Source of the DNA: Salegentibacter sp. R32
GTDB taxonomy: Bacteria; Bacteroidota; Bacteroidia; Flavobacteriales; Flavobacteriaceae
Reading direction: 5' to 3'
Assembly: GCF_008692195.1 (NCBI RefSeq)
Contig: NZ_RXOM01000026.1
Span: 1 to 50,680, forward strand
Length of the DNA stretch: 50,680 bases
Within the stretch, counting starts at the first letter, position 1. Each line of letters starts with the position of its first letter. The notes under the pieces are model-generated. The model worked only from the letters and a program-made list of their open reading frames with translations. It was not told the origin of the DNA and made no database searches. Shown here one piece after another: positions 41 to 31,700 of this stretch. A program made the position numbers and the translations under genes.

Positions 41-118
41 ATTCCAATTTTATATTGGAATAGTAAAGGGGACTTTTAGTCCCCAGTATTAATGAACCTC
101 TGCACTTTTAGTGCAGAG
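41..118. repeat. Three tandem perfect hairpins with 5-nt A/T loops
   Basis: Three unrelated perfect stems follow each other: 41-61 (8-bp stem, loop TTTAT), 68-84 (6-bp stem GGGGAC/GTCCCC, loop TTTTA) and 98-118 (8-bp stem CTCTGCAC/GTGCAGAG, loop TTTTA). The last two share the closing AC/GT pairs and the loop, giving the common core ACTTTTAGT. They could be terminators of a gene to the left of the window or members of a palindromic repeat family. A related hairpin lies at 42858-42890. The third hairpin overlaps the first codons of the GGDEF reading frame, which argues that this gene starts further downstream. Confidence 0.75.
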
Positions 119-982
119 TGGTTTAGTGAAAAAGGATTAAAACTCTATACTATCATAGTGCCTGATGGTAATTTTTTAAATTGGAGATTCGTAATTACGA
201 TATGCTTTGTATTTGGACTAATCATTTGGTTCATAATGAATCATTTTTGGAGAAAAGAATTTGAAAAAAACCAAACTTTAAAATTTGAAAAAGAAAACTA
301 CATAGATCTTCTAAAAATATCTGAGAATGAACGTTTAACAGATATTGTCACAGGAGTTCCAAGCTTACAAAGTTTAAAAAATGATATTGAAAATTATTTT
401 AATTCCAAGAATATATCTTGGGAATTACAATTTATTTTAATCGATTTAAAAGATTTCAGAAAAATCAATAATAAATATGGATTTCTTAAAACAAATGAAC
501 TGTTAAGAGTATTAGCTCAAAGTATTTATAAAAAAATGCGTAGGAATGAAGATATGTATAAATATCCTGTTGATTGGAATAAACAAAGTGGAGAACATTT
601 TTATCGTTTACACACAGGTGGAGATGAATTTGCATTTATTATAGAGGGAAATCAAGCTGAAGCACTTGGATTTGTTAATCGATTAGTAAAAAATCATTTT
701 AAAAATATTTCAGGCCTGACCGAAAGTATTCTGGGGAAATCTATTAAATTGTCATTCCATTGTGCGGTTTTAGAAATGGACACAAGAGATGATATTAATG
801 ATATTTTAAGAAAAGCGAGTGAATGCTATTTAATTGCAAAAGAGGGTAAAAAAGACTTTAATATTTGTTGGCATCCAAATAATTTAGAAAATAATTTTAA
901 AGAAGATTGGGCAAAAAATATTTATAAAGAGACTAGAGAACTATTTGATGTTCTTACTATAGAAAATAAAGATTATTCATAG
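92..982 (+). CDS. Membrane-anchored GGDEF-domain protein (diguanylate cyclase-like)
   Basis: The 296-aa frame has one hydrophobic segment at about residues 33-50, followed by a GGDEF domain. Visible motifs are a degenerate DxLTGLPN-like element near residue 83, the IDLKDFRKINN stretch at 117-127, which is the usual metal-binding and substrate region, and an intact GGDEF signature at 176-180. GGDEF enzymes make cyclic dinucleotides from two NTPs; an intact signature suggests activity, but the product is not known here. The first codons fall inside a perfect hairpin (98-118), so GTG at 158 is a plausible true start that keeps the membrane segment; ATG at 236 would lose it. The gene sits 290 bp upstream of the GHKL/PRTase pair in the same orientation, with its own possible promoter in between, so linkage is suggestive only. 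No partner receptor, HD-GYP or EAL domain is visible in the window. Confidence 0.75.
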   Translation: MNLCTFSAEWFSEKGLKLYTIIVPDGNFLNWRFVITICFVFGLIIWFIMNHFWRKEFEKNQTLKFEKENYIDLLKISENERLTDIVTGVPSLQSLKNDIENYFNSKNISWELQFILIDLKDFRKINNKYGFLKTNELLRVLAQSIYKKMRRNEDMYKYPVDWNKQSGEHFYRLHTGGDEFAFIIEGNQAEALGFVNRLVKNHFKNISGLTESILGKSIKLSFHCAVLEMDTRDDINDILRKASECYLIAKEGKKDFNICWHPNNLENNFKEDWAKNIYKETRELFDVLTIENKDYS

Positions 983-1272: not shown

Positions 1273-2451
1273 ATGACAGAAGAAATAAGAATCAATAGAA
1301 ACATAACACCTTCTAAGTTAAGTGATTTATATAGAAATATAAATTATTATAAATCAAAATATTCAATACTTATTCTCCCAAATCAATTTGACAAATATAG
1401 ATTTGGAATTTTAGCAGACTTACTAAGGTTTATCATCACCTTAAATAAGAATTGTAATATTTTGAAAGTTAAAATCGATGTTGAGAAAAATAATTTGGAT
1501 CAATTCTATGACCAAGAATACGCTTATCCAATAATATCTTTATTATGGAACACCTCAAGGTTTGTAGATAAAAATGATAAATCAATAAAGAGTGATTTAA
1601 GGAATTTACAAAACAGTTTTTTCACGACAATGAACTCTCTATCGAAAATGAAAGGAAATAAGTATATTTTTGTAAATACTGATCATTTGTCTGAAAATAG
1701 AGGATTAATAAGATTGTTTGAAAATTCTCAAGGCTTCAATGATGATGAAAATTTGATTTCAGAAAACGTTAAAGATATTCTTACCAACTATGTATTAACA
1801 TTCAATAAAAATAATATTAAGGAGATTCAAAGTGTTCTACAAGATATAGGAGCCATAATCTATGAACTTACTAAAAACACATATGAGTGGGGTAAAACAG
1901 ATTCAAATTTAGTAGAGATCCCAACAAGTATTAGAGGGGTCTATATGAGGTTTCATAAAAATAAGAAGCAAAAGATTATAGAGGATTATCAGAACACTCC
2001 AATAGCAAATTTCTTTAATCATCCTATAATTAATGAAAAGTCACTAAATGACCTCAATCAAATATATTATTTGGAAATTTTAGTCTTCGATTCCGGAGTA
2101 GGTTTCATAAATAAGTTTGGAAAAAATAACGATTTAAGTGATATAGAAATTATAAAGCAATGCTTGATGAAAAATCAAACATCTTCAAGCACAAATTTAA
2201 AATCTAAAAAAGGTATTGGTTTAGATAGGATACTAAGGATATTAAATAAAAAAGGATTTTTAAGAATCTATACTGATAAATATGCCATATACAGAGATTT
2301 AATCGAGAATGAGTATGAGTCCGTTGAGAAAAATAATCTGTCTTCACTAGAATTAAATGATTGGAACAAATCAGATTTTAATTCAAAAAAAAATGTACAA
2401 TCGCAAGGTTCATATGTAAGCATATTGTACCCTTTTCAAAATTATAGTTAA
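1273..2451 (+). CDS. GHKL-fold (HATPase) protein, first gene of a two-gene unit
   Basis: The 392-aa protein has the ATP-binding motifs of the GHKL superfamily (histidine kinases, Hsp90, MutL, SpoIIAB-type anti-sigma factors). The N box is ELTKN at residues 198-202, the G1 box DSGVG at 273-277 and the G2 box KGIGL at 313-317, and a final GSYVSILYPF strand near 379-388 completes the fold. Residues 28-70 form an alternating hydrophobic segment resembling a STAS-like domain. No HisKA dimerisation helix, transmembrane segment or receiver domain is visible, so a classical sensor kinase is unlikely. The stop codon is followed immediately, with no gap, by the ATG of the PRTase-like gene, which points to translational coupling and a shared function. 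The cell process is unknown; the position next to a restriction locus suggests a defence or stress-signalling role, which is inference. Confidence 0.7.
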   Translation: MTEEIRINRNITPSKLSDLYRNINYYKSKYSILILPNQFDKYRFGILADLLRFIITLNKNCNILKVKIDVEKNNLDQFYDQEYAYPIISLLWNTSRFVDKNDKSIKSDLRNLQNSFFTTMNSLSKMKGNKYIFVNTDHLSENRGLIRLFENSQGFNDDENLISENVKDILTNYVLTFNKNNIKEIQSVLQDIGAIIYELTKNTYEWGKTDSNLVEIPTSIRGVYMRFHKNKKQKIIEDYQNTPIANFFNHPIINEKSLNDLNQIYYLEILVFDSGVGFINKFGKNNDLSDIEIIKQCLMKNQTSSSTNLKSKKGIGLDRILRILNKKGFLRIYTDKYAIYRDLIENEYESVEKNNLSSLELNDWNKSDFNSKKNVQSQGSYVSILYPFQNYS

Positions 2452-4710
2452 ATGGGGAAATTCTACATTTTTAATTCATCATCAAAAAATAAAGAGTACA
2501 ATAAACTAACAGTAATATTTAATCCTGATACAAGTTTTGATTTTAATATTTTAAATAAAGAATTATCCCAACATTTTAAAAATTTTCACCAGACCAGCGC
2601 TCTGTTAATTTTTTATTGTGGTAGTATAAAAAATATAGAGGAAGATTTTCAGGAAAACTTAAATTCATTATTTAAGAGCATTCCTAAAGTTGAAGAAGAA
2701 TCATTAAAAAAAAGTATTTTTTTTATCTCTTATGATAATTACTCCTTCCAGACTAATAAAAAGTCAAAATTCTTAGATAAACATCTAAAAGAAATTATTA
2801 ACCAAGGTCTGTGTGAAGTATTTACAAAGAATGGTGGTTTGATTGAAAGTAATGGAATATCGCACCACTTTGAATTTCCATCCGGTAAACATTCCGCTAA
2901 ATTCTTACGAACTGCCAATGTTCTTGTCTATAAATCAGAAATTGATTTTATAGCTATTAACACCCTTCATCTTTTTGAAGATCAAAATTTTGAAAATATT
3001 TATTGTGATACATTATCTATAAATGTGATCGCCTATTCAATGACAAAATATATCAGAAGATTTCTTAAAGATAGAGAAATTAATATTGAGTCATTTCATT
3101 CTTACGAAGGAATATATAACAAAAATTCGACTTTCTATAATAAATCAATTTTTTTAATATCTGCTTCAACATCTGGGGGCTTAATACACTATATTCAAAG
3201 GAATCATCCAGAAATAAAATCTGCCATGATTTGTACTTTATTCTATTTACCAATTGATAAAAATTCAAGGATGATTTTGGAGAGGGTATTATGTAATCTC
3301 GAAAGGAATGAAGACTTAAATTATGGAATCGAATTATTTTATCAATCTAAGAAGAATGAAAAATGTAAATATTGCGAAAGTCATTCGACTCCAATTAAGA
3401 TTTTGGGAGACTCATTTAGTTTGGATGAACCTATTATTAATAGTAGGAATGTAACCACAGCGTATATATCAAAATCATTAAAAGATTTTGTAGAAACTTT
3501 CAAGTATAATAAAGAAATTGGAACATGCTTAAAAGTTTCTTACAGTGAGCAATCAATTGAAAGAAAAAAATATGATTTATTTATTGATTATGAAAAGGTA
3601 ATTTCCAATATCACAAATCAAAATTTTGAAGACCATAAAAACAAATTAGATGCCTATATAAATCAATACATTCCTGCCTCTACTAAATATATCATTCATT
3701 TAAATGATAAGGGTTCTTCAAAATTATCTGAATACATCCATAATAAAGTGAAGGAGCACTCTCAAAATGAGATTCAAATACTAAATCAGTCTGACTTAGA
3801 AGAAAAAATCATAGATGTGAAAGAATCAGGCGCAATACTTATTGTTGGTTCATGTATTACAAATGGTAAAAACTTACTTTATTTAAGCCGATTTTTTAGA
3901 AATCATGAGGCCATTAGACTTATTTATTTCATCGGAATAAATCGAATTGATAACAATTTAAAATATAGAGAACTTAAAAGCAATATTAAGTATGGACTCT
4001 ATGGACCTGAAAATAGTTCTTTTATTGAAATTGAAAGTATAAATTGTGATAACACTAATTCTAAAACTTCTTGGGAGATTGAGTTAGAATATTTAAAAGA
4101 AATTCGAGAAAATTTAGATGAGGCTCCAGACTTTGTTAATAATAGAATAAATCATATTCAAGCATTTTCTAATATTGATAAAAAAGGAGGCGAGAACAAA
4201 ATATTTTATGATGATATCAAAGAACAAGAATTAAAGATTAGAAAAAATTCGGCTTTTTTTCATGACAACTCTTATTATGAAAACATAACGCAATCCGATG
4301 TGTATTTTACTATTTCGTGTGTTCTAAACAACATGAGAAATAACACAAAAAATGGCTTGATCCAGACTAGTTTTGTTAAGAATTTAATTGATCCATTTGT
4401 ATTTAATAGATTCAATGATGGTATTATACAAGCTTCAATTTTGAGAGCTGCAAAAGATGAAGAATTGAATTATTCGGTTAGTCATAAAATATCCTCAGAC
4501 ATGCTTTCCTTATTGAAAACTTTTATAAAATATAAAAATGATTATCAAGGAGAAGCTATTTTCGAATTTTTATACGCATTAGCAATTGGAAAAATGAGGT
4601 TATATAAAGATCATTATCAAATAATTATTAAAGAAATGGAAAAAATTAAGAGTAAAGAAGTATCTGTTTTTAGAGATTCTATTATCAGTGTATACCAAAA
4701 TTCTCTATAA
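2452..4710 (+). CDS. Large protein with two phosphoribosyltransferase-like segments
   Basis: This 752-aa protein is not from a family I can name. Residues about 138-265 resemble orotate phosphoribosyltransferase: HFEFPSGKHSAKFL (139-152) matches the HFxLxSGxHSxxF element of that family, and SIFLISASTSGG (232-243) sits where the PRPP-binding loop DDxxTTGG is expected, but its acidic pair is replaced by SA. A second segment, ILIVGSCITNGKNL (462-475), again has the hydrophobic-strand plus T-x-G loop layout without the acidic pair. Both loops therefore look altered, and PRPP chemistry may be lost or changed. A CKYCESH element at 305-311 could bind metal. There is no membrane segment or signal peptide. 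The gene starts directly after the GHKL stop codon. A fused or duplicated PRTase acting as sensor, effector or nucleotide-salvage enzyme is possible. Confidence 0.6.
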   Translation: MGKFYIFNSSSKNKEYNKLTVIFNPDTSFDFNILNKELSQHFKNFHQTSALLIFYCGSIKNIEEDFQENLNSLFKSIPKVEEESLKKSIFFISYDNYSFQTNKKSKFLDKHLKEIINQGLCEVFTKNGGLIESNGISHHFEFPSGKHSAKFLRTANVLVYKSEIDFIAINTLHLFEDQNFENIYCDTLSINVIAYSMTKYIRRFLKDREINIESFHSYEGIYNKNSTFYNKSIFLISASTSGGLIHYIQRNHPEIKSAMICTLFYLPIDKNSRMILERVLCNLERNEDLNYGIELFYQSKKNEKCKYCESHSTPIKILGDSFSLDEPIINSRNVTTAYISKSLKDFVETFKYNKEIGTCLKVSYSEQSIERKKYDLFIDYEKVISNITNQNFEDHKNKLDAYINQYIPASTKYIIHLNDKGSSKLSEYIHNKVKEHSQNEIQILNQSDLEEKIIDVKESGAILIVGSCITNGKNLLYLSRFFRNHEAIRLIYFIGINRIDNNLKYRELKSNIKYGLYGPENSSFIEIESINCDNTNSKTSWEIELEYLKEIRENLDEAPDFVNNRINHIQAFSNIDKKGGENKIFYDDIKEQELKIRKNSAFFHDNSYYENITQSDVYFTISCVLNNMRNNTKNGLIQTSFVKNLIDPFVFNRFNDGIIQASILRAAKDEELNYSVSHKISSDMLSLLKTFIKYKNDYQGEAIFEFLYALAIGKMRLYKDHYQIIIKEMEKIKSKEVSVFRDSIISVYQNSL

Positions 4711-6350: not shown

Positions 6351-6427
6351 ATGGTCAAATCCTCTAGGTTAATTTAAGAAGTAAAGGAATAATCAAGATG
6401 AACAAACATAGCAAAAGTACACCTAAG

Positions 6428-6456
6428 GTCCCCAATTTGAGATTCCCGGGGTTTGA
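6428..6456 (+). repeat. Left 29-bp inverted repeat of the hsdS inversion switch
   Basis: The 29 bases here reappear exactly, in reverse complement, at 8808-8836. They lie in the region encoding the LRFPGFE stretch near the N-terminus of HsdS. Recombination between the two copies would invert about 2.4 kb and place the other hsdS reading frame behind the hsdM-linked start codon. A recombinase gene lies 74 bp beyond the right copy. Confidence 0.9.
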
Positions 6457-6971
6457 GGAAGAATGGAAGGAGAGAAAGTTATCTGACTTTCTGAAATTCA
6501 AAAATGGAATAAACGCTTCTAAAGAATCTTATGGATCTGGCTATAAATTTATTAATGTGCTAGACATTATTGAAAATGATTTTATTAATCATCAAAATAT
6601 AATTGGAGCGGTAAAGATATCTGAAGAAGTATTTAATAAAAATATTGTTGAGTATGGAGATATATTGTTTCAAAGAAGCTCCGAAACAAGGGAAGATGTA
6701 GGACAATCTAATGTATATTTAGATAAAGAAATGCCAGCAACTTTTGGTGGTTTTGTAATTCGTGGAAAACAAATTAAAGATTATAACCCCTTATTTTTAA
6801 ATTATCTATTAAAAACTTCTCCTTCAAGAAAGGAAATCACTTCTAAAAGTGGTGGTAGTACAAGATATAATATTGGACAAGAAACTTTAAGCAGTGTTGG
6901 TATAATAACTACGGAAATAGAAGAACAAGCAAAAATAGCATCATTTCTTTCAAGTATCGAAGGTAGAATCC

Positions 6972-6990
6972 AAACCCAAAACAAAATAAT
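6972..6990 (+). repeat. Left copy of an internal 19-bp inverted repeat in hsdS
   Basis: Nineteen bases encoding the QTQNKII part of the central conserved helix are present exactly in reverse complement at 8280-8298 in the inverted hsdS. Recombination at this pair would exchange only the second target-recognition domain, giving further specificity combinations. Confidence 0.75.
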
Positions 6991-7636
6991 AGAGGACTAT
7001 AAATTGTTTAAGAAAGGAATGATGCAAAAACTCTTCAAACAGGAAATTAAGTTTAAAGACGGTGAAGGTAATGATTACCCTGAATGGAAAATCAAATTCC
7101 TCAAAGAATTTTTTGATTTTCACAGGGGTTCAAACTTATCTAAAAATGATATAACTAATGAAGGGAGTAATTACTGTATACATTATGGCGAGCTATTTAC
7201 AATCTATAATGAGATAATAGATACTGTACAATCAAGAACAAATAATACAGGAAAAAAAGTAAAATAGGAGATATTTTGATGCCAAGTTCAGATGTAACTC
7301 CAAGTGGTTTGGCTACAGCAAGTACTATTCTAAAAGATGGTGTGATATTAGGAGGAGATATAAATATTCTCCGACCTAAAAATAAAATAAACAGTAGCTA
7401 CATGTCTTATTATTTAAATTTTGCTAAAAAAGAAATTATTAGACTAGTAACTGGCACCACGATTAAACATATTTATAATAAGGACTTGAAACAACTTAAA
7501 TTTAAAGTTTCCCAATCATTAGAAGAACAACAAAAAATTGCAGAAACTCTTTCAGCTATCGATAGAAAAATAGAACTTGAAATAAAACTGTTAACTCAGT
7601 TAAATCAACAAAAGCAGTACTTTTTACAAAATCTGT

Positions 7637-8827
7637 TTATATAAATAAATTTTGCAATAGGTATTTTTTTTGCTCTTGATATTGCGCTAAGAGTAGTTTT
7701 TCTTTTTCTAATTTCTTATCGATTAAAGATAGGAAATTTGCGATTTTTTTCTGTTCTTGAAAAGGTGGTAACTTGATTTTTATTTTAGAAAAATCAGTTC
7801 TATTAATAATTGGTAAAGTTGTATTGGCTTGAGTAGCCTTTATTCTAGGAGTTTGATTTAATAGAGCATAATACACAAATTCATTGAAGAAATTACAATT
7901 TACAATTAAAGAGTTTATTTGTTGATTTGAAATTGAACGAGTTGTTGTTATAGCTATTTTTCCGATAGATGCAATGCAGGTGTACAAAACTGTTCCGATT
8001 GGTAGAATTTTTATGCTTTTAGTTTCTTTAACTTTTCTAGAAACATTTTTTTGAAACTTTTTTCCTTCCTTAATATCAGTAGGTGTTATGAAATCTATAT
8101 TACCATTCCATAATTCCTTTTTAGAAGTTTTAGGGGTTTTCCCTGTTACTATTTTTCCTATTTCGCTTAACTTCTTTTCATCCCAATTTGAAAACTTATC
8201 TCCATCATCATCCAGAAAACGTAATTCTTGAGAAAAAATCTTTTGTCTGAACCCAAGCATTAAGGATTCTAATCGGTCAATTATTTTGTTTTGGGTTTCT
8301 ATTCGGTTATCTATTAATGTAAGGAATGAAGCAATTTTCTGTTGTTCAGAGACAGAAGGAAAGTAAATTTTAAAATTTTTGATACTCTGGAAATTTAATC
8401 CTTCGCGACCACTTCCTGTTTGTCCTTGAAAAACCAATTTTTGACCGATTTCTGAGCTTAGGATGCACTGAACAAAATTAGGGTTATATTGCTTTAGCCT
8501 GATAATAGAAACGTGTTGATTTACATTTCCTTCTTGAAAATCCCTAGGCACCACACAGCTTCTCCCTATAGATCCACCGGTAATATTCAAAAGTATGTCT
8601 CTAGATAAGACTTTACTGCTTTTCATCTTTTCATGCACTTCCTCTGAAATATGTGTTTCATCAAGTAAAAGGCAATTATTATTTACATTTTGACTTCTTA
8701 TAAATGGAATTCCATCAGTTTGATATACATTCTCACCTCCTTTGGGAGTTTTGCCACTACCTATTTTTGAGCATAAATTTCCTAGCTTTTCCTTTTTCCA
8801 CTCATTTTCAAACCCCGGGAATCTCAA
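7637..8827 (-). CDS. hsdS: Inverted, probably silent hsdS cassette
   Basis: The 396-aa frame encodes a full two-domain specificity subunit: TRD1, a central helix with IASFLTLIDNRIETQNKII, then TRD2 and the C-terminal helix ending YLLQNLFI. It faces the opposite way to hsdM. Its only available start near the N-terminus is TTG within the 29-bp inverted repeat, and an in-frame TAA (8837-8839) stands directly before that repeat. It therefore lacks the MNKHSKSTPKVPN leader of the forward copy and is best read as a silent cassette that becomes expressed after inversion between 6428-6456 and 8808-8836. Unlike the forward copy it has no internal frameshift, so inversion would restore a complete HsdS. 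Confidence 0.85.
   Translation of the reverse strand: MRFPGFENEWKKEKLGNLCSKIGSGKTPKGGENVYQTDGIPFIRSQNVNNNCLLLDETHISEEVHEKMKSSKVLSRDILLNITGGSIGRSCVVPRDFQEGNVNQHVSIIRLKQYNPNFVQCILSSEIGQKLVFQGQTGSGREGLNFQSIKNFKIYFPSVSEQQKIASFLTLIDNRIETQNKIIDRLESLMLGFRQKIFSQELRFLDDDGDKFSNWDEKKLSEIGKIVTGKTPKTSKKELWNGNIDFITPTDIKEGKKFQKNVSRKVKETKSIKILPIGTVLYTCIASIGKIAITTTRSISNQQINSLIVNCNFFNEFVYYALLNQTPRIKATQANTTLPIINRTDFSKIKIKLPPFQEQKKIANFLSLIDKKLEKEKLLLAQYQEQKKYLLQNLFI
8280..8298 (-). repeat. Right copy of the internal 19-bp inverted repeat
   Basis: Exact reverse complement of 6972-6990, in the central conserved-helix coding region of the inverted hsdS. Confidence 0.75.
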
Positions 8828-8910: not shown

Positions 8911-9837
8911 ATGAATAAACAACAAACAATCTCAGCAGTAACTCAACTTTGGCAAGTAGACAAAAAACAATATGTAAAGAAGTCAACAATCTCAGCGTAT
9001 GTGCTATTATTAGAAAATCATTTATTACCGGCTTTCGGCCATAAAGCTGAACTAGAAGAAGTAGAAGTACAGAACTTTGTTTTTAAAAAACTGGGAGAAG
9101 GCTTAAGCCATAAAACCATAAAGGATATGCTTATTGTCTTAAAAATGATCTTAAAGTATGGGGCAAAACATCAATTATTGAAATATAAAGCCTTTGATAT
9201 ACAATTCCCCACAGAACGGGAACGCCAGCAATTAGAAGTATTGAATAGAGGCGATCAAAAAAAACTGATGAAGCACATTCAGGAGAACTTCACCTTTAGG
9301 GGCTTAGGTGTTTATATCTGTTTAAGTACCGGCTTACGTATAGGGGAAGTTTGCGCCCTGCGATGGGAAGATCTGGATGTGGAGTTAGGAATGGTGAAGG
9401 TTAATAAAACCATACAGCGTATTTATACCATTGAGAATGGCATTAGAAAAACGGAATTGATTATTGATAGTCCGAAAACAAAAAATTCCATACGGGAAAT
9501 CCCGATGAGTCGTGATTTATTAAGAATTATAAAACCTATAAAAAAGATTATGAATGATTCTTTTTTTATCCTGACCAATGAGGCTAAACCCACCGAACCG
9601 AGAACCTATCGGAATTTTTATAAAAACCTGATGATGAATTTAGGAATGCCCAAATTAAAGTTTCACGGGCTGCGGCATAGTTTTGCTACCCGATGTATTG
9701 AGAGCAAATGTGACTATAAAACGGTAAGTGTACTGTTAGGGCATTCCAATATAAGTACCACCTTAAATTTATATGTTCACCCTAATGATGAACAAAAGAA
9801 AAAAGCTATTAATCAAATGTTTCGTTCTTTAAAATGA
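8911..9837 (+). CDS. Tyrosine recombinase, probable hsdS invertase
   Basis: The 308-aa protein has an N-terminal SAM-like core-binding domain (about 1-100) and a C-terminal catalytic domain with the tyrosine-recombinase residues: R143 in TGLRIGE, the HGLRH box at 252-256 (H252, R255), H278 in LGHSNIS and the nucleophile Y288 in NLYVH. Such enzymes break and rejoin two DNA sites through a covalent 3'-phosphotyrosine. The gene sits immediately beside the right inverted repeat of the hsdS pair, the standard arrangement for phase-variable type I systems in Bacteroidota, so it most likely inverts hsdS rather than integrating an element. A TAGCTTTG element at 8881-8888 may be its promoter. Confidence 0.9.
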   Translation: MNKQQTISAVTQLWQVDKKQYVKKSTISAYVLLLENHLLPAFGHKAELEEVEVQNFVFKKLGEGLSHKTIKDMLIVLKMILKYGAKHQLLKYKAFDIQFPTERERQQLEVLNRGDQKKLMKHIQENFTFRGLGVYICLSTGLRIGEVCALRWEDLDVELGMVKVNKTIQRIYTIENGIRKTELIIDSPKTKNSIREIPMSRDLLRIIKPIKKIMNDSFFILTNEAKPTEPRTYRNFYKNLMMNLGMPKLKFHGLRHSFATRCIESKCDYKTVSVLLGHSNISTTLNLYVHPNDEQKKKAINQMFRSLK

Positions 9838-9881: not shown

Positions 9882-10629
9882 TTGAACTTAGAATTAAAGA
9901 AATATTACCTTTTTATTGATGAGAGTGGGGCTCATGGATTAGTAAATCTAGACCCCTCTTTTCCCGTATTTCTACTTTGTGGTATGTTATTATCAGAAAG
10001 TAATTACCAGCTTGTAAAAGAAAAAATTAATAGTTTAAAACATAAATTCTGGGATGATAAAGAAGTTATTCTACATTCAAGGGATATTCGAAAGTGTGAA
10101 AAGGAATTTCAGGTATTGTTTGACCTTGATTTAAAAAAAGAGTTTTATAAGGATATAAATGCTATTATAACCAACAGCAATTACCGCATAATTTCATCAG
10201 CTATTCAAAGAAAGATATATTAAACGTTATGGAAAGCTTTCAAATGATGTCTATGAGTTAGCTTTGTCATTTATCATAGAACGAACAATCTTTTCCTTAG
10301 ATGAGGTTAATGACGATGCAAAACAGTTGAGTATCATTATTGAAAAAAGAGGAAAAAAGGAAGATCGGAAATTAGCAGAGCATTTTCAAAAATTATTGGC
10401 TCGTGGTACCGGCTATGTAAGTGCTGAACGTTTAAAAGAGGTAAATGTAAAAATTCAGTTTAGTGATAAGAAAGAAAATATAAACGGTTTGCAGCTATGT
10501 GATTTATTAGCCTATCCAATTGCTAGGTATGTCATCAATAAAAATAGAGCCAATCCTGCTTTTGAAGTATTGGAAAGTAAAATTTATCAAAAAGGAGGAA
10601 AGCGATATGGATTGAAAATATTCCCATAA
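9882..10629 (+). pseudogene. DUF3800-family protein, frameshifted
   Basis: The first part (9882-10223, TTG start) begins YYLFIDESGAHG, the aspartate-containing first strand typical of DUF3800, a family with an RNase H-like fold often found beside restriction and other defence genes. The second part (10264-10629, open from about 10206) carries the second half, including the late aspartate in GLQLCDLLAYPIARY, another family hallmark. The two are in different frames; removing one base near 10205 joins them as AIKERYIKRYGKLS. The gene is therefore broken by one base or misread. It lies between the recombinase and a hairpin terminator. Confidence 0.7.
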
Positions 10630-11128: not shown

Positions 11129-12301
11129 ATGGAGAGGAAAAAACTACATAATCATAAGGAGCTTTATGCTGAAATAAATACAATTACATCGGTAGGTCGT
11201 AAATTAATACCATATCTGGAAAATTGTGAAATACTGTTTTACGTAACTTTGCCATTAGATGGAAAAAGGTTTCAGATTAATCAAGAAGGAATTTTTAATG
11301 GCTTGTATATAAATAACTGTAGTTTTCCTCAAGAGTTTGCTTTCAATAGCAATGATCATCTTATTTATTTTGAAAGATGTGAATTTACTTCAATTGATTT
11401 TGATGATGTTATATTTAAAAACAAAATCAGGTTTCATCATTGTGTTTTCAATAACAATCTTATTCTAAATAATACAACATTTCAAAATTTAATAGATTTC
11501 TGGTCTTCAGAATTTAAGGGAACTACTATATTTTATAAAGTTAATTTTGAAAGTACAACGGTCTTTTCATCTGTTATTTTTAGAGAAAATATACTTTTCA
11601 CATTTACGACAGTCCTTAAGCTTATAGTCTTTAAGGGAACGGTGTTTGAAAAAGGGGTGGATTTGACCACTGCAATTATTGAAGGTAAATTAAGTTTGTT
11701 TAATATAAAACTAGATAATTTCCAAACGAAACATATAAGTCAAAAAACGAATAATGATAGTTCCGTTAATTGGTTAGATACTTATGATGGATATATTACG
11801 GATTTAGGGATAATACCAACAATAAACAAAAGAGAAACTTATAGAGTTTTAAAAGAAGAGTTTGAGCGTTTAAAAAATATTCCAGAATCACTTCGTTATA
11901 AAGTTTTAGAGCATAGGGTCTATCGTGATCTGCTAGGTTCAAAAAAGAAAAATACCCATGAATTTTTTGATTGGTTAAACCTATGGTTAAATGATCTATC
12001 AAGTTTTTATGGTACTTCTTACGCTAGAGCGTTTGTCTTTACTCTATCGATAGGTTGGTTGTTTTTCTATTTATCCATAATGAATACGGGATTGTATAAT
12101 TTCAGTTTTAATCCTATAAAGTGGGAATTTACTGAAGGCTTAAAATATTTTGTACAATTTTTAATACCAACTCATAAGTTTAATTATTTAGGTGATAACA
12201 TTGATTTAAAAACAGGTTTTTATCTATTCGATTTTTTCGGTAGGTTATTAGTTGGTTATGGTATTTACCAGTTTATTCAAGCATTTAGAAAATATAAGTA
12301 A
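11129..12301 (+). CDS. Pentapeptide-repeat protein with C-terminal membrane segments
   Basis: The 390-aa product has a central stretch (about residues 60-200) of FxxxxF-type pentapeptide-like repeats (for example VIFKNKIRFHHCVFNNNLILNNTTF), predicted to form a right-handed beta-helix. A linker with a charged helix follows (about 225-270), then hydrophobic segments near residues 298-322 and at the C-terminus (LLVGYGIYQFIQAF), with a shorter hydrophobic stretch between them. Similar pentapeptide plus channel-like proteins occur in Bacteroidota beside restriction genes, but their function is not settled. The gene starts 3 bp after the chimeric ORF and precedes the GIY-YIG gene, so it is probably cotranscribed as cargo inside the hsd locus. 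A membrane-acting effector is possible but unproven. Confidence 0.6.
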   Translation: MERKKLHNHKELYAEINTITSVGRKLIPYLENCEILFYVTLPLDGKRFQINQEGIFNGLYINNCSFPQEFAFNSNDHLIYFERCEFTSIDFDDVIFKNKIRFHHCVFNNNLILNNTTFQNLIDFWSSEFKGTTIFYKVNFESTTVFSSVIFRENILFTFTTVLKLIVFKGTVFEKGVDLTTAIIEGKLSLFNIKLDNFQTKHISQKTNNDSSVNWLDTYDGYITDLGIIPTINKRETYRVLKEEFERLKNIPESLRYKVLEHRVYRDLLGSKKKNTHEFFDWLNLWLNDLSSFYGTSYARAFVFTLSIGWLFFYLSIMNTGLYNFSFNPIKWEFTEGLKYFVQFLIPTHKFNYLGDNIDLKTGFYLFDFFGRLLVGYGIYQFIQAFRKYK

Positions 12302-12319: not shown

Positions 12320-12747
12320 GTGAATTATAGTAAAAATGAAATTATTGAATTTGTAGAAAAATTTGAAAAAGAATTATTCAAATCAAATCCAATAAAATTT
12401 AATTTTGATAAAAAGTGGTCTTCTAATTTTCCAAATAAGGCAGGAATTTATGCAATTTATGATATTGATAAGTTATTATATGTTGGAGAAACAGCTAACT
12501 TGAAAGAAAGAATGAAAGAAGTAAAAAGAACTTACAATCATAGTTTTCGTAAAAAATTGGGTAAATTTTTAGTTGAAGGATCTAAAGTTGTTAAAGGTAA
12601 ATTTGAAGAGACATTAGAATTGAAATTGAATGATTATTATATAGAGAGTTAAATTTTGGAAGATTAGAAGTTGAATCATATTTAATACATAGACATTGTG
12701 AGAATGGTTTATTAAATTCAGTAGGTAAAAGAAACAGAATAAATTAA
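12320..12747 (+). pseudogene. GIY-YIG nuclease-like protein, frameshifted near its C-terminus
   Basis: The N-terminal frame (GTG at 12320 to a stop at 12650-12652, 110 aa) contains the GIY-YIG core: GIYAIYD, then LLYVGETANLKERM, with the GIY and YVG elements and the arginine that normally follows. After the stop the next frame stays open to 12747 and reads NFGRLEVESYLIHRHCENGLL, the usual C-terminal part of this fold with its conserved glutamate. One extra T near 12649 restores a single frame (ESLNFGRLEVE). The gene ends 4 bp before hsdR. It is a small nuclease-fold accessory gene, broken or misread; whether it acts on phage DNA is unknown. Confidence 0.65.
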
Positions 12748-22781: not shown

Positions 22782-25700
22782 ATGGCTGATTCACAACCTA
22801 CCTGGGATGGATTTTTTGCTTATTTTATCCCAGATTATCAATCTGTTCTTCAAGCCCTCAAAGAGACCTATGAAACAAATCTTGACATCACAACTTTTGA
22901 GCAATTTTCAGAACGTCTAGCTAATCCAGGGCGATTGGAAAGTGAAATTTCCAACTTTGCGTCTGACACTCCATTTATCTTGGCATTTTGTGAATATATA
23001 AAGAGTAAAGCCAATGAGTTAAATAGTTGGGAAGAATTTTCCGTGGATAATGATATATATAATGGGGAAATAATTGCTAATTTTTATCAAGCCCGTGAAC
23101 TTAGCTTTCAAGAGTTTCAGAATATTGAAGTGGCAAATTTTGCGAAAGATTTTGTTAGTTCAATTGCTCAGGATACTGATTTTTTGGCAGACTATGTGGT
23201 TAATCTTCATAATATTTATGTAAACAACCCTAATCCACCCACCCTAGAAATTATTGAGCAACCCAAAGATTTTGTAGGTTGTTCCGGAGACCTGGCTACA
23301 TTTAATGTACAGCCCAATATTAAAAATGTAAGATATGAGTGGTATAGAACTGATAATGTAACACAAGCCAATTATGGTAACAGTTACAGTTTTGAACTTA
23401 CTGCAATTAATCCTGAGCTAGAAGTTGTTGCTATTATTTATTATAAATATAATGAACCTAATATGCAATCTGTAGTCTCTAACAGGGTTATGGCACTTGT
23501 TAACATACCTATAATTGAAACACAACCTCAGTCTAAAAATGTAGAAATTGGTCGTACAGTTAATTTTAGTGTTTCCGTACAAGGGCAGGAACTTCAATAC
23601 CAGTGGCGAAAAGATGAAGAAAACATAGAGGGAGCTATAGAACCTACGTTAACAATTAACAATGTTGGTTTAGAAGATGCAGGGGGATATGACTGTATAA
23701 TTGTTAGTCCTTGTGCAGGGAGAACTACAAATAAGGCTACTTTAGAAGTTAATACTTCAGTCTCCAATACTATAAGAGGTAAAATACTTACTGCCCAACG
23801 GGAGCCGGCTCAAGAATATACGGTTAAAGCTTTTAGGTCTTATCTTGGTGAAGAAACTATTATTGGAGAGACAATTACCGATGAAAAAGGGAATTACACC
23901 ATTTATTATGAGCCTTCTGAAAATATCAATAGCAAAAAACTTAGCTTACTAATTGAAGTTTCCCATCCTGGAGTTAAGCAGCGCTCCCCATTAATTATGG
24001 GGGCTGCAAAGCATCAGGTGATTAATATGATTACCACTAAAGAAAGATTGGTGGGAATTAATGAATTTGAGCAATTAGAAGAATGGTTTAATAAGAACTT
24101 AGCTAGTTTTGATTGGGATCAAGTAAAAGAACAGGATATTGAAAATTTTTCAGAAGCTTCTAATTTTCCCTCTGCTTGGATTCGCGCATACGCACAAGCT
24201 AAAACTTTTACTGCTAATGAAAGTCACATACAAGGCTATTATGCGTTAATAAGGTCAAATAGTGCTTTTAAGAAAAAAAACTTTCTTTATAAAGAAGCTA
24301 ATGAAGCGATAGATGCTCTAAAAACAGCTAAAAAGCGAAAAATTATTCCTGAATCTTTTGATGAAGATCAATTTACTACTTATCTGTATAACGATTTTAA
24401 AAGTGAGGTTGATAATTTATTATCTTCTGCTCCAGATAGCAAAATAAATAATTTTATTGACTTAGCCGGTTTTAGTGGGGCATCTCAAAATGTAAAGTCT
24501 AAATTTTTTACCTTACAGAAACAATATCAAAATAATGCGAAAGAATTTTGGAGCCAGATAGATAGTGATGCCGATTTTGATACCTATCAACAAGGTTTAA
24601 AATTGATATCACAAATGGGAGCGGTGACCGCTGTGAATATGGATTTAATGCAGCACATCAAAAGTTCACACTCCTCTTTATCCGGTCCAGAAGATTTAGT
24701 GCTACTAAATGAAGCTGATTTAAAGCAAGATATACTTGATTCAGGAAGTACAGTTCCTTCTTTTATTAAAGGAAAAAATAGCACTGAAAAACGTAATAAT
24801 TATGCTAGATGGATTAGTGAGCGTATCGAAGAAAGCTATCCAACTTTATATATGTATGTCAGAATTAAAGAAAATCCAAGTTTTCCTTCCCAACAAGATT
24901 TTGGAGTATTCTTTAGTAATAATACCGATTTTGAATTGGATAAAATTTCTATCCATCAATATTTAAGTGATAACCCCAATGCGTTAGAAGGCATCACCGA
25001 TCCTGAAGAATTTACAGATAACTTATTAAGAGTTCAACGCTTTCATTCCATTGCTCCTAGAGGTAATCGCGCAAGGGTAACCAGTGCATTAGTTGCCAAA
25101 GATTATAGAAGTGCACCTCAGATTGCACAAACCCCTGCACAATTATTTTTTAGCAATGTGAGTGATGTGTTAGATCATAGAACAGCAAGTCAATTATATA
25201 ATACCGCGAGAGAAGTTACTGCTCGTTCTATTAATTTTTTAGGTAAATATCATCAAGGGCTTAATGCTTCTGAATTCAGTGTGATTAGAGGAAATGTGAT
25301 TAATACAGATAATACCAGCCTTAGGCAAATTTTTCCCAATATAGAAAGTTTATTGGGAGAAACTGATTATTGTGCTTGTGAACATTGTAAATCTGTATTT
25401 GGCCCTGCTGCATATCTGGTAGACTTACTACAATTTTGTCAAGAAATTGAAACTAATGGCATCAATTTATACGAATTACTCACACAAACCTACGAAGGCT
25501 TAAGTTCTCCAAGACGTGGGGATATGCCTAAAATAGATCTTACCTGTGACAATACTAATGTAGTACTCCCTTCCATAGATATTATCAATGAACTTTTATG
25601 TAAGCTGGTTGATCATAATTTTCCTTCCAATAGACAAACTGCCAAAACCGCAGCAGAGTTAAGAATTACTCCACAATACCCACCAACAAATGAGGTCAAT

Positions 25701-28700
25701 CAAAGTTTGATAGATCAAGTTTTTCCTTGGGTGCTTCCGTTTGATTACTATGCTACTTCTGCGTATTTGCAATTGCCTATAGCAGATACTTCCCGTAACG
25801 AAATTGCTTGGAAGTTTCCAAAACAAGGAGGTGATGGTTCAAGCGAAGAGCTTCAAATCATAAGAACAATGACTGGCTTAGAGTTAAGTGTTGGTAATTG
25901 GTCCCGTCTTAAGATGGATGCTTTTGATTTATCACAAACTTATGGAGTGGAGGGAAGTGTTAGTGGTATATTTGAAAGTAGTGGAAGCTTATTAATAGAA
26001 AAATTAATAGACCATGTAGGGCTTTCTTTTGATAGGTTTAAAAAATTACTTCAAACAGCAACTTTAAATCCTTATAAAGCCAGTGGAGACCGAACTTATT
26101 CAATTACCTATACAGGGGATGGATGTTCTTTAGAAAGTGCAAGAATTAACAATATTGCTAACTTCTATCAACGATTATATTATCTTGAAAAACTTTCTTC
26201 TACTCTAGATTGGAATTTAACGTTAAGTGACCACTACATTAGGGGCAACAACTTGTTAAATGCGATTGATAGTGCAAATACAGATGAACTTACCCAAGCT
26301 CTTCACAACTTAAGTTTGCAACAAAAACTTTCTGAAAAATTAAAAATACAATTCAATGATGTGTTAAGTTGGTTGACGGTGCTCAATACCAATAGTTTAG
26401 CTGAAGATACCCTTACACAGTTTGAACAGATTTATAAGAACCCCGAATTAGGCTATAATTATACCGATGCAGAACTGGAAGGTCTTCAACTAAACGGGGA
26501 ACGAACAGAAATTGAAACTCCCAAGTCTTTACTAGCCATGAAAGGTGTAGTAAGAGCTTCTTTACAAATAAATAATCTAGATGAATTAGTAAATTCGAAT
26601 TGGTTAGGTGATGATAACTATCAATTAAACCTTAGCCTAAAACGCTATTCTCAATTATATGCCTATGTGGAATTAGCTAATGCTTTAAATCTAGAGATAA
26701 ATGAATTGGTGGTGTTATGGGGTAAATTTAATGATATTGAACAACCTCCTCTGGAAAACAACTATGATAATTTACTGGATCTTCTAGATTTTGTTGAATT
26801 TATGGAGCGACTTCATCGTTCCAATTTTAAGGTAGATGAACTTTTGTACTTATTTACCGATAGAAGTTTAGAGCCTATCTTACCAGAAGCAAAACAAACA
26901 GAGTTTTTAATAGAATTAAGAAAGTTATTAAAAGAAACTTGGGAAACTAAATTATTGGGGTTAAAAAATACCGCTTCGGGAATTCACTTTTTATTGAAAA
27001 CCCAAACGATTAGTGAAGTACAAACCGATGATTTAGATCATATAGATTTAATTATTAAAGGAGAATATGATGAAGAAGTTGAGTCTCAATTGCTTGATTG
27101 GTGGTATGATTTTGATTTGCTAAGTGCCACGAATATAAATTTAGGAGAATTTCAAAGTCGCGTAATAGAGATTTATGCCACAGAACCCTATTTAAAAGAT
27201 CCTCAAGATCGTATTCACTATATTTATAAAGTATTCGCTGATGCTCAACAAACATCTGCAGGAGAACCTTCGTTAATGGATACCGTATTTTCCAATTATT
27301 TGCAACAATTTGCGGTAGAAAGTTTTGTTTCGCATTTCATTAAAGACTATCCTAATGTAGCACCGCTTCAAAATGAACTATTAACAAAAGCTAGCTACTT
27401 AACCATACCACAAGATTCAACTACTCCTGTAATAGATATTTTTACCGATAGGGGTTTTGTGGAGGAGGAAGATACTATAAATCCTTCCAATTATCCTCAA
27501 ATATATAGTGCTTTTCAGTTAATATTTAAAAATGTAGTCTTTTTATCAAAGTTCCCGAATATAGATAAGTATTACCAACTGTTTTATAATCAAATTCCAA
27601 ATGGTTGGCCGCAGCCAGCTAAACTACCATTAACCGGCCAACCTGATCCTGAAGAAGATGCAATGATAAAAGGTTTACTGGAAGTATGGAGACTGCAACA
27701 AGTAGAAAAATACCTAGCACTCCATCAGTCAGAATTAGTATTAATGTTATTGCAAATACAAATAGGAGAATTAGCTGGAGAACAAAATATTCAAGAACGT
27801 TTAGAAATTATTTCTACATGGAGAATTGACCAAATTCAACATCTTACTATTAGTTTTAATTTCAGTGATGCTTATTGGTTAGGTTCTACTTGGCTCTATC
27901 AGCTTTACCAAGCTTTTCAAGTAGCAGGTAAGCTTGATGCTTTCCCTTCAGTAGTACAACGATGGAATAAAGAAAATCTTCATAAAGCTGATTCTATAGG
28001 TATTCAACAAACCGTACGAAAACAACTAAAAACCGAAAGTGACCGTAAAAAACTAATTCAAGCAAATGATTATTTACGGGAAAGTCTGAGGGATGCTTTG
28101 GTAGGTTATGTAGTGCGTCAAACATCTGTATTAGATGGTGAGTTGTTTGAAAAGAGCAAAGAAGGCTTGGCCGATTTTCTATTGGTCGATATCCAAAAAA
28201 GTTCATGTTCCTTAACCTCAAGGGTAAAGCAAGCATTATCGGCTATTCAAATGCTGGTTCAGCGAAGCTTATTAGGTATAGAGCGTCTTAGTGATACAAC
28301 AACTTTTGAAATCCCTGCTCCGGCAGTTAAAGAATGGGTATGGCGCAAAAATTATAGGGTATGGGAAGCCAATAGAAAAGTTTTTCTCTATCCGGAAAAT
28401 TGGTTGTTGCCTGAAACCCGGGATGACCAAACCCAGCTTTACCAATCTTTTGTAGAAGAAATCTCTCAAAATGATGTCACCGATGAAAATGCTCGACGGG
28501 CCGTATCCAACTATTTAAAAGGTCTTCATGAAATTGCCGATATGGAGATTTGCCAAATTTATCATGAAGAAGAATATGAAGATGATAATTATGAAAATGG
28601 CTACTTAACCGATACAGTACATATTTTTGCCAGAACGAAGAATGAACCGCATACCTATTATTACCGTAAATGGGTTGACGATGCTTATTTTACCCCTTGG

Positions 28701-31700
28701 GAAGAACTGCCATTAGAAATAGAAGGAGATTACCTTATCCCTACAAAATATGCAGGAAAATTATGGCTGTTTTGGCCTATTTTTATTGAAAAAGGAGATG
28801 GAGGCGGAGAAGTAGAAGCTTCTATGGACGTTAGCTCAGGAGGAAATAAAAATACCTATTCGGGAACGCCACCGCAACCTAATAAATACTATGAGATAAG
28901 AATAGCTTGGTCCACAGAATTTCGGGGACAATGGCAGCCTAAGAAAATCACCAAAGAAACGTTTAAAACCCAGCCTTCAGATTTTGAAGTATTAAGCAGT
29001 AAGCGTAATTTTATTTTTAATACTAAAATTTCTAATGAAGGTGATCTTCTATTTAAATCAGGCTATTATATAAATAGTGATTCCAATAGTTCATCATATA
29101 TGATGAATAAATCTTTACGGTTTTACAATAGTAATTCCCAACCGAAAATGATAGAGTTAGATGTCGATCCTAATAGAGAATTATTGCCCTATGCCGATCC
29201 TTATTTTATGAAAAATAAGTTTATGCAAGAAGAAGACGTTAGCAGGTATAATGCTGCGAATTATCCTGAGTTTTCACGCTTAATAACTTCTGAAACTCCT
29301 GCATCGGCCACTTTACCTCAACAATTTCCGAAAGATGCTTTAGCTTCAGATTACGCGTTCTTTTATGGAGATGAAAAGCATAGCTTTTTTGTAAATCCGG
29401 AAGTAGGTGTACCTGTTGCAGAAGAAGTGAATGGTTTAACCCGTCAAGCTTTTAGTCTGGAAAATACAACCGCTTTGGGAAGTACTTCTATGAGTAGCCT
29501 AGGGATTATTGTGAACCAGTCTCTTCCAACCGGTCCAAGTAATCTTACCGAAACGGTATTAGCCCAACCTATGGGGAGCAGTTTAACAGATACTTATTTT
29601 GGTGCTGCAGATGAGCAAACCACCATTGTGGTAGATCATCCTGATCCCGACTTTCCTGAAGATCCAGGAGATCCAGGATATCCAGGATATCCACCTTTAA
29701 GACCTATAGGCCCTCATGATCCCATTGTTTTGGAGCCCCATAATCCTGAAGAACCTGAAGAAGAAACCGTTAATCAACCAAGTCATCGTTTTTATACTCA
29801 TTACCATCCTTATGCCGATGATTTTTACAGGGAAGTCAACCGCTATGGGTTAGAAGGTATTTATCAACCTATTCAGGAAAATTTAAAACGACAGTTGGCA
29901 CAAAGTGATTTTGATTTTGCGGCAACCTATAATCCTTCCGATAAAGTCATCCCAAAATACCCGGTAGAAAATATTGATTTTTCTTCTTTTGGTGCTTATA
30001 GTGTGTATAATTGGGAATTGTTTTATCATATCCCTATGGCAGTAGCCCAATTGCTTACGGCCAACTTTAGGTTTGCAGAAGCACAACAGTGGCTCCATTA
30101 TATTTTTGATCCTACCGAATCAGAAGGTAAAACCCCGGAGCGTTTTTGGAAGATAAAACCTTTATATGAATTTTCTAAAATTGATACCGAACAAGAATTC
30201 TTAGAATTCACACAGGGGAATGATGAAAATTTAGAAAAACTCGTCAAACAATGGGAGAAAAATCCATTTAATCCACACCTCATCGGTAGGTTTCGTGTAT
30301 CTACTTACATGCGTCGGGTAATTATGGTATATATTGAAAACCTGTTAGCTTGGGCAGATCAATTATTTACACAAGATAGTATAGAATCGATTAATGAAGC
30401 TTTTCAATTGTACATGCTTGCTTGGAGAATTTTAGGTAAACGTCCAGAAAAATTACCTGCTCCATCACAAAGTGTTAAAAATATTGGGCAACTTATCGAT
30501 CCGACTATTCCTCATTTTTCCACCTTAGAAAGGATTGCAGATGGAGTGTCATTAAACACCATTAATAATGATATAAGTTTTAATACCACAACTTGGCAAC
30601 CTGCTTCTTTTCACCTGCGTCAAAGTCCGGTACATCAATTAAGTGATAATAGAAGATCCCTTAATCTGCAAGTTGCTCAATCCGGTACCTTACAAAGTAC
30701 AGCTGTTTTAGGAGGAGCGCAACCTGCTGTATCCAACTTTTCCGGTATTCGGAATAATTACAACCAAATAGGTATCTTCCAAGCCCCCAATCCAGAACCT
30801 TTTAATCCTGCCGGAGATCAATTTAATCAAGCTGCTTCTTCTATAAATACACTAGGTTATTTTTGTGTATTGCCCAATACGCAATTAAATGAATATTGGG
30901 ATAAAGTAGAAGATCGTCTATATAAAATTAGGCATTGTCTTAACATTGAAGGAGAGGAGCGTTCATTGGCTTTATTTGAACCTCCAATTGATCCGGGTGC
31001 CATTATTGCTGCTTTAGCTGGAGGGGCAAATCTTGCTTCAGTAATCCAAGGATTAAATGCTCCCTTACCTTACTACCGCTTTAGATACCTCATCGATAGG
31101 GCGATGGCACTTACCGCTGAAGTAAAAGGTTTAGGGCAATCTTTAAAAGAAGCTTTAGAAAAAGCCGATGCAGCAGAGCTTTCCCTGTTACGTGAAGAAC
31201 AACAGCAATACGTATTGGATGCTGTAAGAAAAGTAAAAATTAAAGCCGTAGAAGAAGCAGAGCAATCTCTTGTGGTCTTACAAGCTCAACGAGAAAATAT
31301 GAAGTATCGGGAGCAATTCTACCGCAGTCGAAAATATACCATTACCGAGGAAGAGAATTATCTAAAATCGATGCAAAAGTCCAAATCTCAACTGGAAACA
31401 GCTAGAGCTTTGAGCTTCGTAATCGGTACATTAAGTACAATACCTGAGATTTCTTTCGGAGTAAATGGCGCCTTTGGTTCCCCTCACGCCGCAACCAAAA
31501 TAGGAACCCACGTATTTACAGGGGCATCCAGAGCTGCTGCACAAGCACTACAGACTTCATCAAGTATATCAAGCAGTCGTGGAGGTATTGAAAATACTAA
31601 AGGCGGTTGGTTACGACGTCAGGACGAGTGGACCTTTCAGGCAGAATCGGCCAAGAAAGAACTTGCTCAATTAGAAGAGCAAATAAATGCTTCGCAAATC

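Follow-up and report, generated by a model that had tools for sequence, protein, structure and literature searches.

The two abutting genes at positions 1273 to 4710 of a 50,680-nucleotide stretch of Salegentibacter sp. R32 (contig NZ_RXOM01000026.1, hereafter the window, from an assembly of 4.08 Mb in 68 contigs) were identified by full-length profile matches as a plain member of PDC-M65, a catalogued and so far undescribed candidate in PADLOC, and not as an unrecognised system. The first gene (A) encodes a protein with a GHKL ATPase/kinase domain and the second (B) a protein with two phosphoribosyltransferase (PRTase)-like domains, the first of which is, by profile comparison, homologous to orotate PRTases of the Thermus type. 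The pair probably constitutes a defence system, and as a tentative reading of how it may work, which we hold at somewhat less than even confidence, a mobile two-gene candidate anti-phage system is suggested, in which A would act as sensor and switch gating B as the output. The parts of the pair are as follows.

1273..2451, + strand: gene A (PDC-M65A), 392 aa
Gene A, about residues 1-150: N-terminal alpha/beta domain, class unassigned, possibly STAS-like
Gene A, about residues 176-392: GHKL ATPase/kinase domain
2452..4710, + strand: gene B (PDC-M65B), 752 aa, with N-terminal cap, two PRTase-like domains and helical C-terminal domain
2773..3441, + strand: B domain 1, residues 108-330, a remodelled orotate-PRTase domain with CxxC knuckle (C305, C308)
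3484..4107, + strand: B domain 2, residues 345-552, a second PRTase-like domain without the acidic pair; R483, W541 and E544 invariant
4174..4686, + strand: B C-terminal helical domain, residues 575-745; R653, D656, I659, Q660, A661, L664, R665 and E705 invariant

Catalogue status, pairing and spread

Both open reading frames (ORFs; 1273-2451 and 2452-4710) lie on the + strand with zero gap between them, just as the original prediction had described. Protein A is matched by the PADLOC model PDC-M65A at E 8.9e-155 (residues 1-390, profile positions 1-395 of 398) and protein B by PDC-M65B at E 0 with 1040.6 bits (residues 1-750, profile positions 1-761 of 763), while neither protein reaches the cut-off of any Pfam or NCBIfam family. 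The PADLOC entry comes without description, domain content or mechanism, and a full-text search, whose scope was the literature without most subscription journals and bioRxiv, returned no paper using the name PDC-M65 and none reporting the kinship of A or of B domain 1 described below. As a consequence, the earlier designation of the pair as unrecognised holds with regard to description and literature but not with regard to the catalogue. According to an excerpt of PMC12988326, PDCs were identified through 'guilt by embedding', after a preprint by Payne et al. from 2024.

Relatives were collected by scanning genomes with one peptide motif of B's C-terminal domain, for which the scan consequently selects; it gave 131 matches, 127 of them relatives of B, and the best 80 of these 127 were taken as loci, which together with the window and seven plasmid records made up a first set of 88 loci with longest-ORF gene calls. 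BLAST clustering placed A directly 5' of B in 83 of the 88 loci; among these 83, the first part of B forms a separate piece lying between A and the rest of B at L009, and A is frameshifted at L032. The remaining five begin near a contig end: at L023, L035 and L060 the end of A is still found 5' of B (hidden Markov model (HMM) E 3e-13 to 3e-41), while L081 and L093 have too little sequence 5' of B to hold A. With three further plasmid records, in which A likewise lies 5' of B (E 1e-71 to 2e-85), A precedes B, whole or as a remaining piece, in 89 of 91 loci (the exceptions, L081 and L093, break off at a contig end), and no intact A or B lacking its partner was seen in these loci and the 395 Bacteroidota genomes examined. 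Homologues occurring apart from each other, which would have spoken against the original prediction, were thus not encountered. Among 81 junctions, 29 show a 4-base and 16 a 1-base overlap. Distances between A proteins and between B proteins are correlated across 72 loci with an r of 0.957, a value reached by 0 of 2000 permutations. Pairing is thus near-obligate and the two proteins diverge in parallel; since the order A-B recurs in distant bacteria (the hosts include Bacteroidota, alpha-, beta- and gammaproteobacteria, Acidobacteria, Verrucomicrobia and Planctomyces), the pairing is not a matter of chance. The nearest named relative found comes from an uncultured Mesonia, with a B protein that is 94% identical.

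The spread of the pair is patchy. The C-terminal domain of B was found in 5 of the 395 Bacteroidota genomes, always within a full-length B and with a full-length A in the same five; the PADLOC model for B matches seven of the 395, the two extra and weak matches being PyrE genes. Relatives of B occur in 11 of 72,556 plasmid records, the eleventh of which (L257, Caballeronia pSBC1_4) holds a remnant that covers only B residues 607-720 and is divided between two small ORFs. In Maribacter aquimaris the pair is present twice (L017 and L018), the copies being 97% identical over A-B with otherwise unrelated outer flanks; the block shared by these copies also contains an upstream gene of 459 aa, so that the mobile block may comprise three genes there. 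No relative was detected in 50,697 phage records at E <= 0.01, none among five pattern matches in IMG/VR (with a one-sequence query that detects close relatives only), and none in three scans of E. coli DNA. An E. coli PRTase system that appears in a figure legend of PMC13092281 may or may not be identical with PDC-M65.

Protein B and its kinship to orotate PRTases

The AlphaFold model of B is confident (pLDDT 89.2), and a Foldseek comparison with the PDB gave a best match at E 6.4e-6 with probability 1.00 and 56 matches at E <= 0.001, the matched domain being unspecified. Among the best 50 of these 56, the titles name PRTases or UMP synthase except for 2dy0 and 4paw, which bear a project title or the title hypothetical protein; in another lookup, 4paw is named an orotate PRTase. 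A search of BFVD returned a mixture of giant-virus PRTases, helicases and a PRTase-CE protein; a literature search on PRTase-CE, of the scope given above, found no paper. The PRTase fold that had been predicted for B from its motifs was thus recovered in the model.

The kinship of domain 1 was narrowed down by searching a profile of B residues 108-330 against 581 ORFs from PRTase loci. All 15 Thermus-type PyrE proteins contained therein (L007, L008 and L143-L155) occupied ranks 1 to 15, with E-values from 2.9e-7 to 3.9e-3, and the next ORF followed at E 1.8; TIGR01367 (pyrE_Therm) lies above its cut-off in all eight of the 15 that were scanned. The 17 PyrE loci above the cut-off of TIGR00336 (L126-L142), the model by which PyrE loci were defined, were absent among the matches. 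Profile-profile alignment of domain 1 with the Thermus-type PyrE set reached 93.9% in hhalign (E 1.6e-7) over the hood region, and the alignment spans the HFxxxSGxHS hood and, following it as in domain 1, the CxxC tail; 74 of the 78 B sequences keep C305 and 73 keep C308. Taken by these comparisons, domain 1 is homologous to Thermus-type orotate PRTase and would most simply be derived from one. Bacteroidota possess two types of PyrE, of which the Thermus-like type has a CxxC tail resembling the knuckle of B; in the genome of the window and in three genomes of the same family, the PyrE above the TIGR00336 cut-off is of the other type. A further match to the domain-1 profile (L162, E 7.4e-4, from a search of 60 genomes) was set aside, as by inspection of its sequence it is an unrelated protein of 610 aa.

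For domain 2 the picture is less uniform. It aligned with a mixed PyrE set at 67% (E 5.1e-5) and with the Thermus-type set at 0.55% (E 0.11), its HMM found no better match than E 0.085 among the 581 ORFs, and domains 1 and 2 aligned with each other at 4.9%. Domain 2 may hence be called PRTase-like by model and motif, with mixed support from profile alignment and a weak case for homology.

The entry motif HHFEFPSGKHS occupies B residues 138-148, with H139 as well as F151 present in 78 of 78 sequences, and the register of the phosphoribosyl pyrophosphate (PRPP) loops was derived from the PyrE alignments together with motif spacing. The acidic pair of PRTases binds the ribose of PRPP. In B this pair is absent, as neither loop 1 (residues 236-238) nor loop 2 (residues 466-467) holds an aspartate or glutamate in any of the 78 sequences, which bears out the earlier description of two PRTase-like loops without acidic pair beneath an orotate-PRTase-like entry motif. 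The same loss in 78 of 78 sequences speaks against plain PRPP sensing, which the original prediction had considered and which was consequently rejected, and makes synthesis of orotidine 5'-monophosphate by B unlikely. Since B retains its hood and a TSG-type loop, sensing of a nucleotide would still be conceivable. Invariants of domain 1 include H139, F151, R153, D186, S217, Y218 and S237 (78 sequences), and seven of its eight invariants fall into four loops that were equated with the active-site loops of PyrE. The mean frequency of the top residue is 0.71 in these loops and 0.39 elsewhere, a difference reached by 0 of 222 shifts, whereby the shift test is descriptive as the loops were picked with the PyrE motifs in mind and after the conserved columns had been seen. 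Loops that are changed and yet conserved point to a repurposed rather than a decayed site. The densest run of invariants in B is located in its C-terminal domain (R653, D656, I659, Q660, A661, L664 and R665, joined by E705, each in 78 of 78 sequences), and with a mean column identity of 43% this domain is as conserved as domain 1 (41%; domain 2, 34%), pointing to an output delivered by B itself.

Two alternative functions of B have to be weighed against these findings. According to the first, B would be a catalytically dead sensor for pyrimidine nucleotides altered by a phage, licensing A as ATPase or kinase to act on a third target. The retained hood and TSG loop, combined with the loss of the acidic pair throughout the family and the strong conservation of the pocket loops, are in line with such a role; the degree of conservation of the C-terminal domain, suggestive of B's own output, is not, and no third gene family occurs more often than HsdM, which reaches only 12 of 88 loci. 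This assignment is judged unlikely. Similarly unlikely appears the second alternative, namely that B is an active non-canonical ribosyl enzyme, i.e., a hydrolase or transferase of nucleotides or nicotinamide adenine dinucleotide (NAD), which A holds off until infection. Here, the invariant residues H139, R153, D186, S217, Y218 and S237 in the loops equated with the PyrE active site would be explained, and PRTase proteins are, according to PMC9122126 and PMC12548924, probable effectors elsewhere in defence; the acidic pair is nonetheless missing from every B sequence, and besides PDC-M65B no PADLOC model matches B at E <= 1.

Protein A and its nearest kin

The model of A is likewise confident (pLDDT 91.3). 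All 72 aligned A proteins possess the N box (E198-x3-N202), the G1 box (D273-x-G275-x-G277) and the G2 box (G314-x-G316-L317), by which ATP binding by A is strongly implied, and no histidine-kinase dimerisation domain was matched by Pfam in the A protein of the window or in 12 A proteins scanned. The complete GHKL boxes without histidine-kinase parts that had been read from the window were hence recovered across the family. All 50 rows listed by Foldseek for A are GHKL proteins (GyrB, ParE, Hsp90, TRAP1 and MORC2), with a best E of 8.6e-3 that makes for a weak match.

In the 395 genomes, the A profile gave four non-paired partial matches at E <= 0.001 (G016, G053, G225 and G014). The protein from G016 (324 aa, E 1.2e-9) is followed by a gene of 211 aa without a Pfam family above its cut-off, and the one from G053 (292 aa, E 1.2e-5) by a DUF4325 STAS-like gene (E 7.4e-11), whereas the match in G014 is a hybrid histidine kinase (L184) and that in G225 (L183) has no Pfam name above its cut-off. 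The pairs in G016 (L181) and G053 (L182) are located about 6 kb and about 2.5 kb from HsdM matches, and they may be CapK/CapS-type pairs of Bacteroidota. A set of ten CapK-like proteins was gathered by a search with the G016 protein, itself included; a weak STAS match (E 0.0051) lies at the N-terminus of one of them and a DUF4325 domain at the C-terminus of two (4e-16 and 2e-13), and the other N-termini may, by our own inspection, be STAS-like as well. When 717 ORFs were ranked by the A profile, an A protein (from L012) came first, and the ten CapK-like proteins (E up to 0.022) stood above the HATPase_c_2 and HATPase_c_3 ORFs (E >= 0.18). In hhalign, A aligned with the CapK-like ten at 97.1% (E 6e-11), with HATPase_c_3 (n=27) at 36.8% and with HATPase_c_2, represented by only four sequences, at 7.6%. 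The N-terminal domain of A gave no significant alignment with the N-termini of the CapK-like proteins (E 0.14); in the model, its strands and helices follow one another in a similar order by our own inspection. By these rankings, the GHKL domain of A appears closest to short GHKL proteins, some of them STAS-linked, which resemble CapK.

In line with the Foldseek list, in which GyrB, ParE and Hsp90 are the top matches and MORC2 stands lower, A might instead be an ATP-driven DNA clamp of the gyrase/MORC type with B as its regulatory partner, and the glutamate of the ExxxN motif, kept in 72 of 72 A proteins, would suit such a machine. The profile comparison prefers the CapK-like set over HATPase_c_3, and in the model the GHKL domain extends to the C-terminus of A, so that no transducer domain follows it; the clamp is regarded as quite unlikely.

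Neighbourhood, proposed mechanism and comparison with known systems

Downstream of the pair, the Pfam scan of the window identified type I restriction-modification (RM) genes and a KAP NTPase, as had been noted before. Across the set, genes of type I RM, Hachiman, SIR2, Lamassu, PARIS or Qat are found among the neighbours. In 14 of 88 loci, homologues of the window's type I RM genes occur within the flank examined, and the pair is inserted in varying order, for example hsdS-A-B-hsdR in L025, hsdR-A-B in L021, L022, L024 and L053, hsdS-A-B in L037, L045 and L061, and A-B-hsdM in the window. HsdM occurs in 12 of 88 loci (1.65 Mb) versus 219 matches in 148 genomes, a very roughly seventeen-fold excess if a mean genome of 3.5 Mb is assumed, whereby two detection methods were compared, the background comprises Bacteroidota only and the loci are partly related. 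Among the 25 of 268 families listed for 136 immediate neighbours, type I specificity models match six and the AriA model one, the latter match belonging to the first member. Ten neighbours were chosen by size from 141, and eight of these match PADLOC models at E <= 1e-5, including HamB (E 3e-286), ThsA/SIR2, an Avs3b-like protein and LmuB (two); the matches at L017 and L034 are weak, and L027 and L086 are without match. On a Pseudomonas plasmid, Qat adjoins the pair. The reading of the locus as an immune island, put forward in the original prediction, thus gained support from type I RM, Qat, AriA, HamB, SIR2 and LmuB neighbours; overall, the observation made at that time was confirmed and its interpretation upheld in part, i.e., for the domains and the island and, with the restrictions given above, for the novelty of the pair.

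A gene of the thyX type, encoding a flavin adenine dinucleotide (FAD)-dependent thymidylate synthase, directly adjoins the pair in 4 of 88 loci (L011, L013, L064 and L088; annotated thyX in two), and a further plasmid (L258) has a thyX-type gene beside the pair with a TIR-domain gene and dgt nearby. With so few occurrences, all of them in Rhizobium, Agrobacterium or Bosea, thyX was rejected as a part of the system. These genes, together with loci where the only neighbours are metabolic, would be accounted for if the pair were a regulator of stress or nucleotide metabolism that drifts into islands and has no part in defence. Such a regulator is considered improbable in view of the patchy spread (5 of 395 Bacteroidota genomes), the embedding in RM loci with defence-type neighbours, the plasmid copies and the two copies in one Maribacter genome.

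Considering the above, the suggested mechanism of the two-gene candidate system assumes that A, likened to the STAS-GHKL immune kinase CapK, binds ATP and serves as sensor and switch. Its trigger would be an infection cue, for which single-stranded DNA or DNA damage may be guessed. A would then phosphorylate B or switch its conformation, such control of B by A being suggested by their pairing and by precedent. As the output, B might bind a nucleotide-like ligand in its remodelled PRTase pocket, again a guess, and growth or phage replication would be halted by its C-terminal domain or by the pocket, toxicity being equally conjectural. The position in or beside type I restriction loci would let the pair serve as a second line of defence, triggered once restriction fails or generates DNA damage. 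The version in which gating proceeds by a kinase reaction is held with more reserve than the reading as a defence system, at three to four chances in ten.

Several points weigh against this mechanism. No phage assay of the pair was found in the material searched, and some loci have no annotated defence gene next door. The analogy to CapK is incomplete as a kinase-substrate analogy, because B is not a STAS protein and CapK itself was not among the proteins compared. Links to STAS are confined to a few of the ten relatives (one weak N-terminal match, the two with C-terminal DUF4325 and one partner gene), the N-terminus of A matches those of the CapK-like proteins at E 0.14 only, Foldseek favours GyrB/Hsp90 for A, albeit weakly, and both the hybrid histidine kinase L184 and the large unnamed L183 rank among the CapK-like proteins. 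The CapK-like set was moreover collected with one of A's own matches, hence the comparison favours that set. As for the origin of domain 1, its profile revealed no recognisable PyrE at E <= 0.1 in the genomes of 60 relatives.

A more specific proposal goes further. SpoIIAB phosphorylates a serine of its STAS partner, and on this model the former PRPP loop of B (S237-A-S-T-S-G) would now accept phosphate from a GHKL serine kinase or be gated by a ligand and would control the C-terminal effector, an orotate PRTase having been turned into an immune switch. This is a speculative idea with a small chance of being right. If true, it would define a new class of kinase-gated pseudo-PRTase defence. Should the broader scheme of A gating B be right, a kinase-gated effector of nucleotide fold would join the immune repertoire, and a core metabolic enzyme would have been recruited to immunity. 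For PDC-M65, so far two unnamed models in the sources searched, the remodelled orotate PRTase in one half and the resemblance of the other to immune kinases that respond to DNA damage provide specific residues to target.

A GGDEF-domain protein is encoded 5' of the pair at 92-982 (+ strand). As a third member it was rejected, given that the closest relative (L016, B 94% identical) has an AriA-like gene in its place and that no neighbour in the other 87 loci matches it at E <= 1e-8. Type I specificity genes lie on both strands between 6398 and 11125 with a tyrosine recombinase (8911-9837) between them, an arrangement to be compared with phase-variable inversion systems, and one of them is apparently split (6398-7267 and 7276-7644). 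Two halves of a DUF3800 protein in two ORFs at 9882-10629 probably represent a single disrupted gene. Within the RM locus, before hsdR, a pentapeptide-repeat protein (11129-12301) and a small GIY-YIG domain protein (12320-12652) are encoded. Further downstream, a large ORF (22782-33095) carries Pfam matches to the TcA type of Tc toxin complex and to immunoglobulin-like domains, and the next large ORF extends from 33318 to 40475.

Among described systems, CapK-CapS and VapK-VapS-VapC (PMC13373217) are comparable in that they likewise have a GHKL protein beside or inside immune loci. That report gives 88 of 443 capKS loci as directly downstream of an RM system and presents activation by single-stranded DNA as shown for CapK and as only predicted for VapK of the toxin-antitoxin system. 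In both of these systems the partner is a STAS protein, whereas B is PRTase-like and has no Pfam STAS match; the likeness of A to CapK was assessed with CapK-like proteins found in this work and not with the sequences of CapK or VapK. VcSduA Shedu (PMC12137116) also has a GHKL domain that was proposed to control the defence output; there, it is fused to a PD-(D/E)xK nuclease, while no nuclease family was recognised by Pfam in A or B. In the DprA-PRTase system and in type III retrons, the same two sources (PMC9122126, PMC12548924) place a PRTase-like probable effector beside a sensor. No retron, reverse transcriptase or DprA model was among the best 25 PADLOC families listed for each of eight window proteins, and the pair differs from those systems in having a GHKL protein as partner and a doubled PRTase-like part. 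Finally, the Thermus-type PyrE (TIGR01367) has the HFxxxSGxHS hood and the CxxC tail in common with B domain 1, from which B is set apart by the loss of the acidic pair (78 of 78), by family-specific invariant motifs in the other loops and by the fusion of domain 1 to a second PRTase-like domain and a C-terminal domain.

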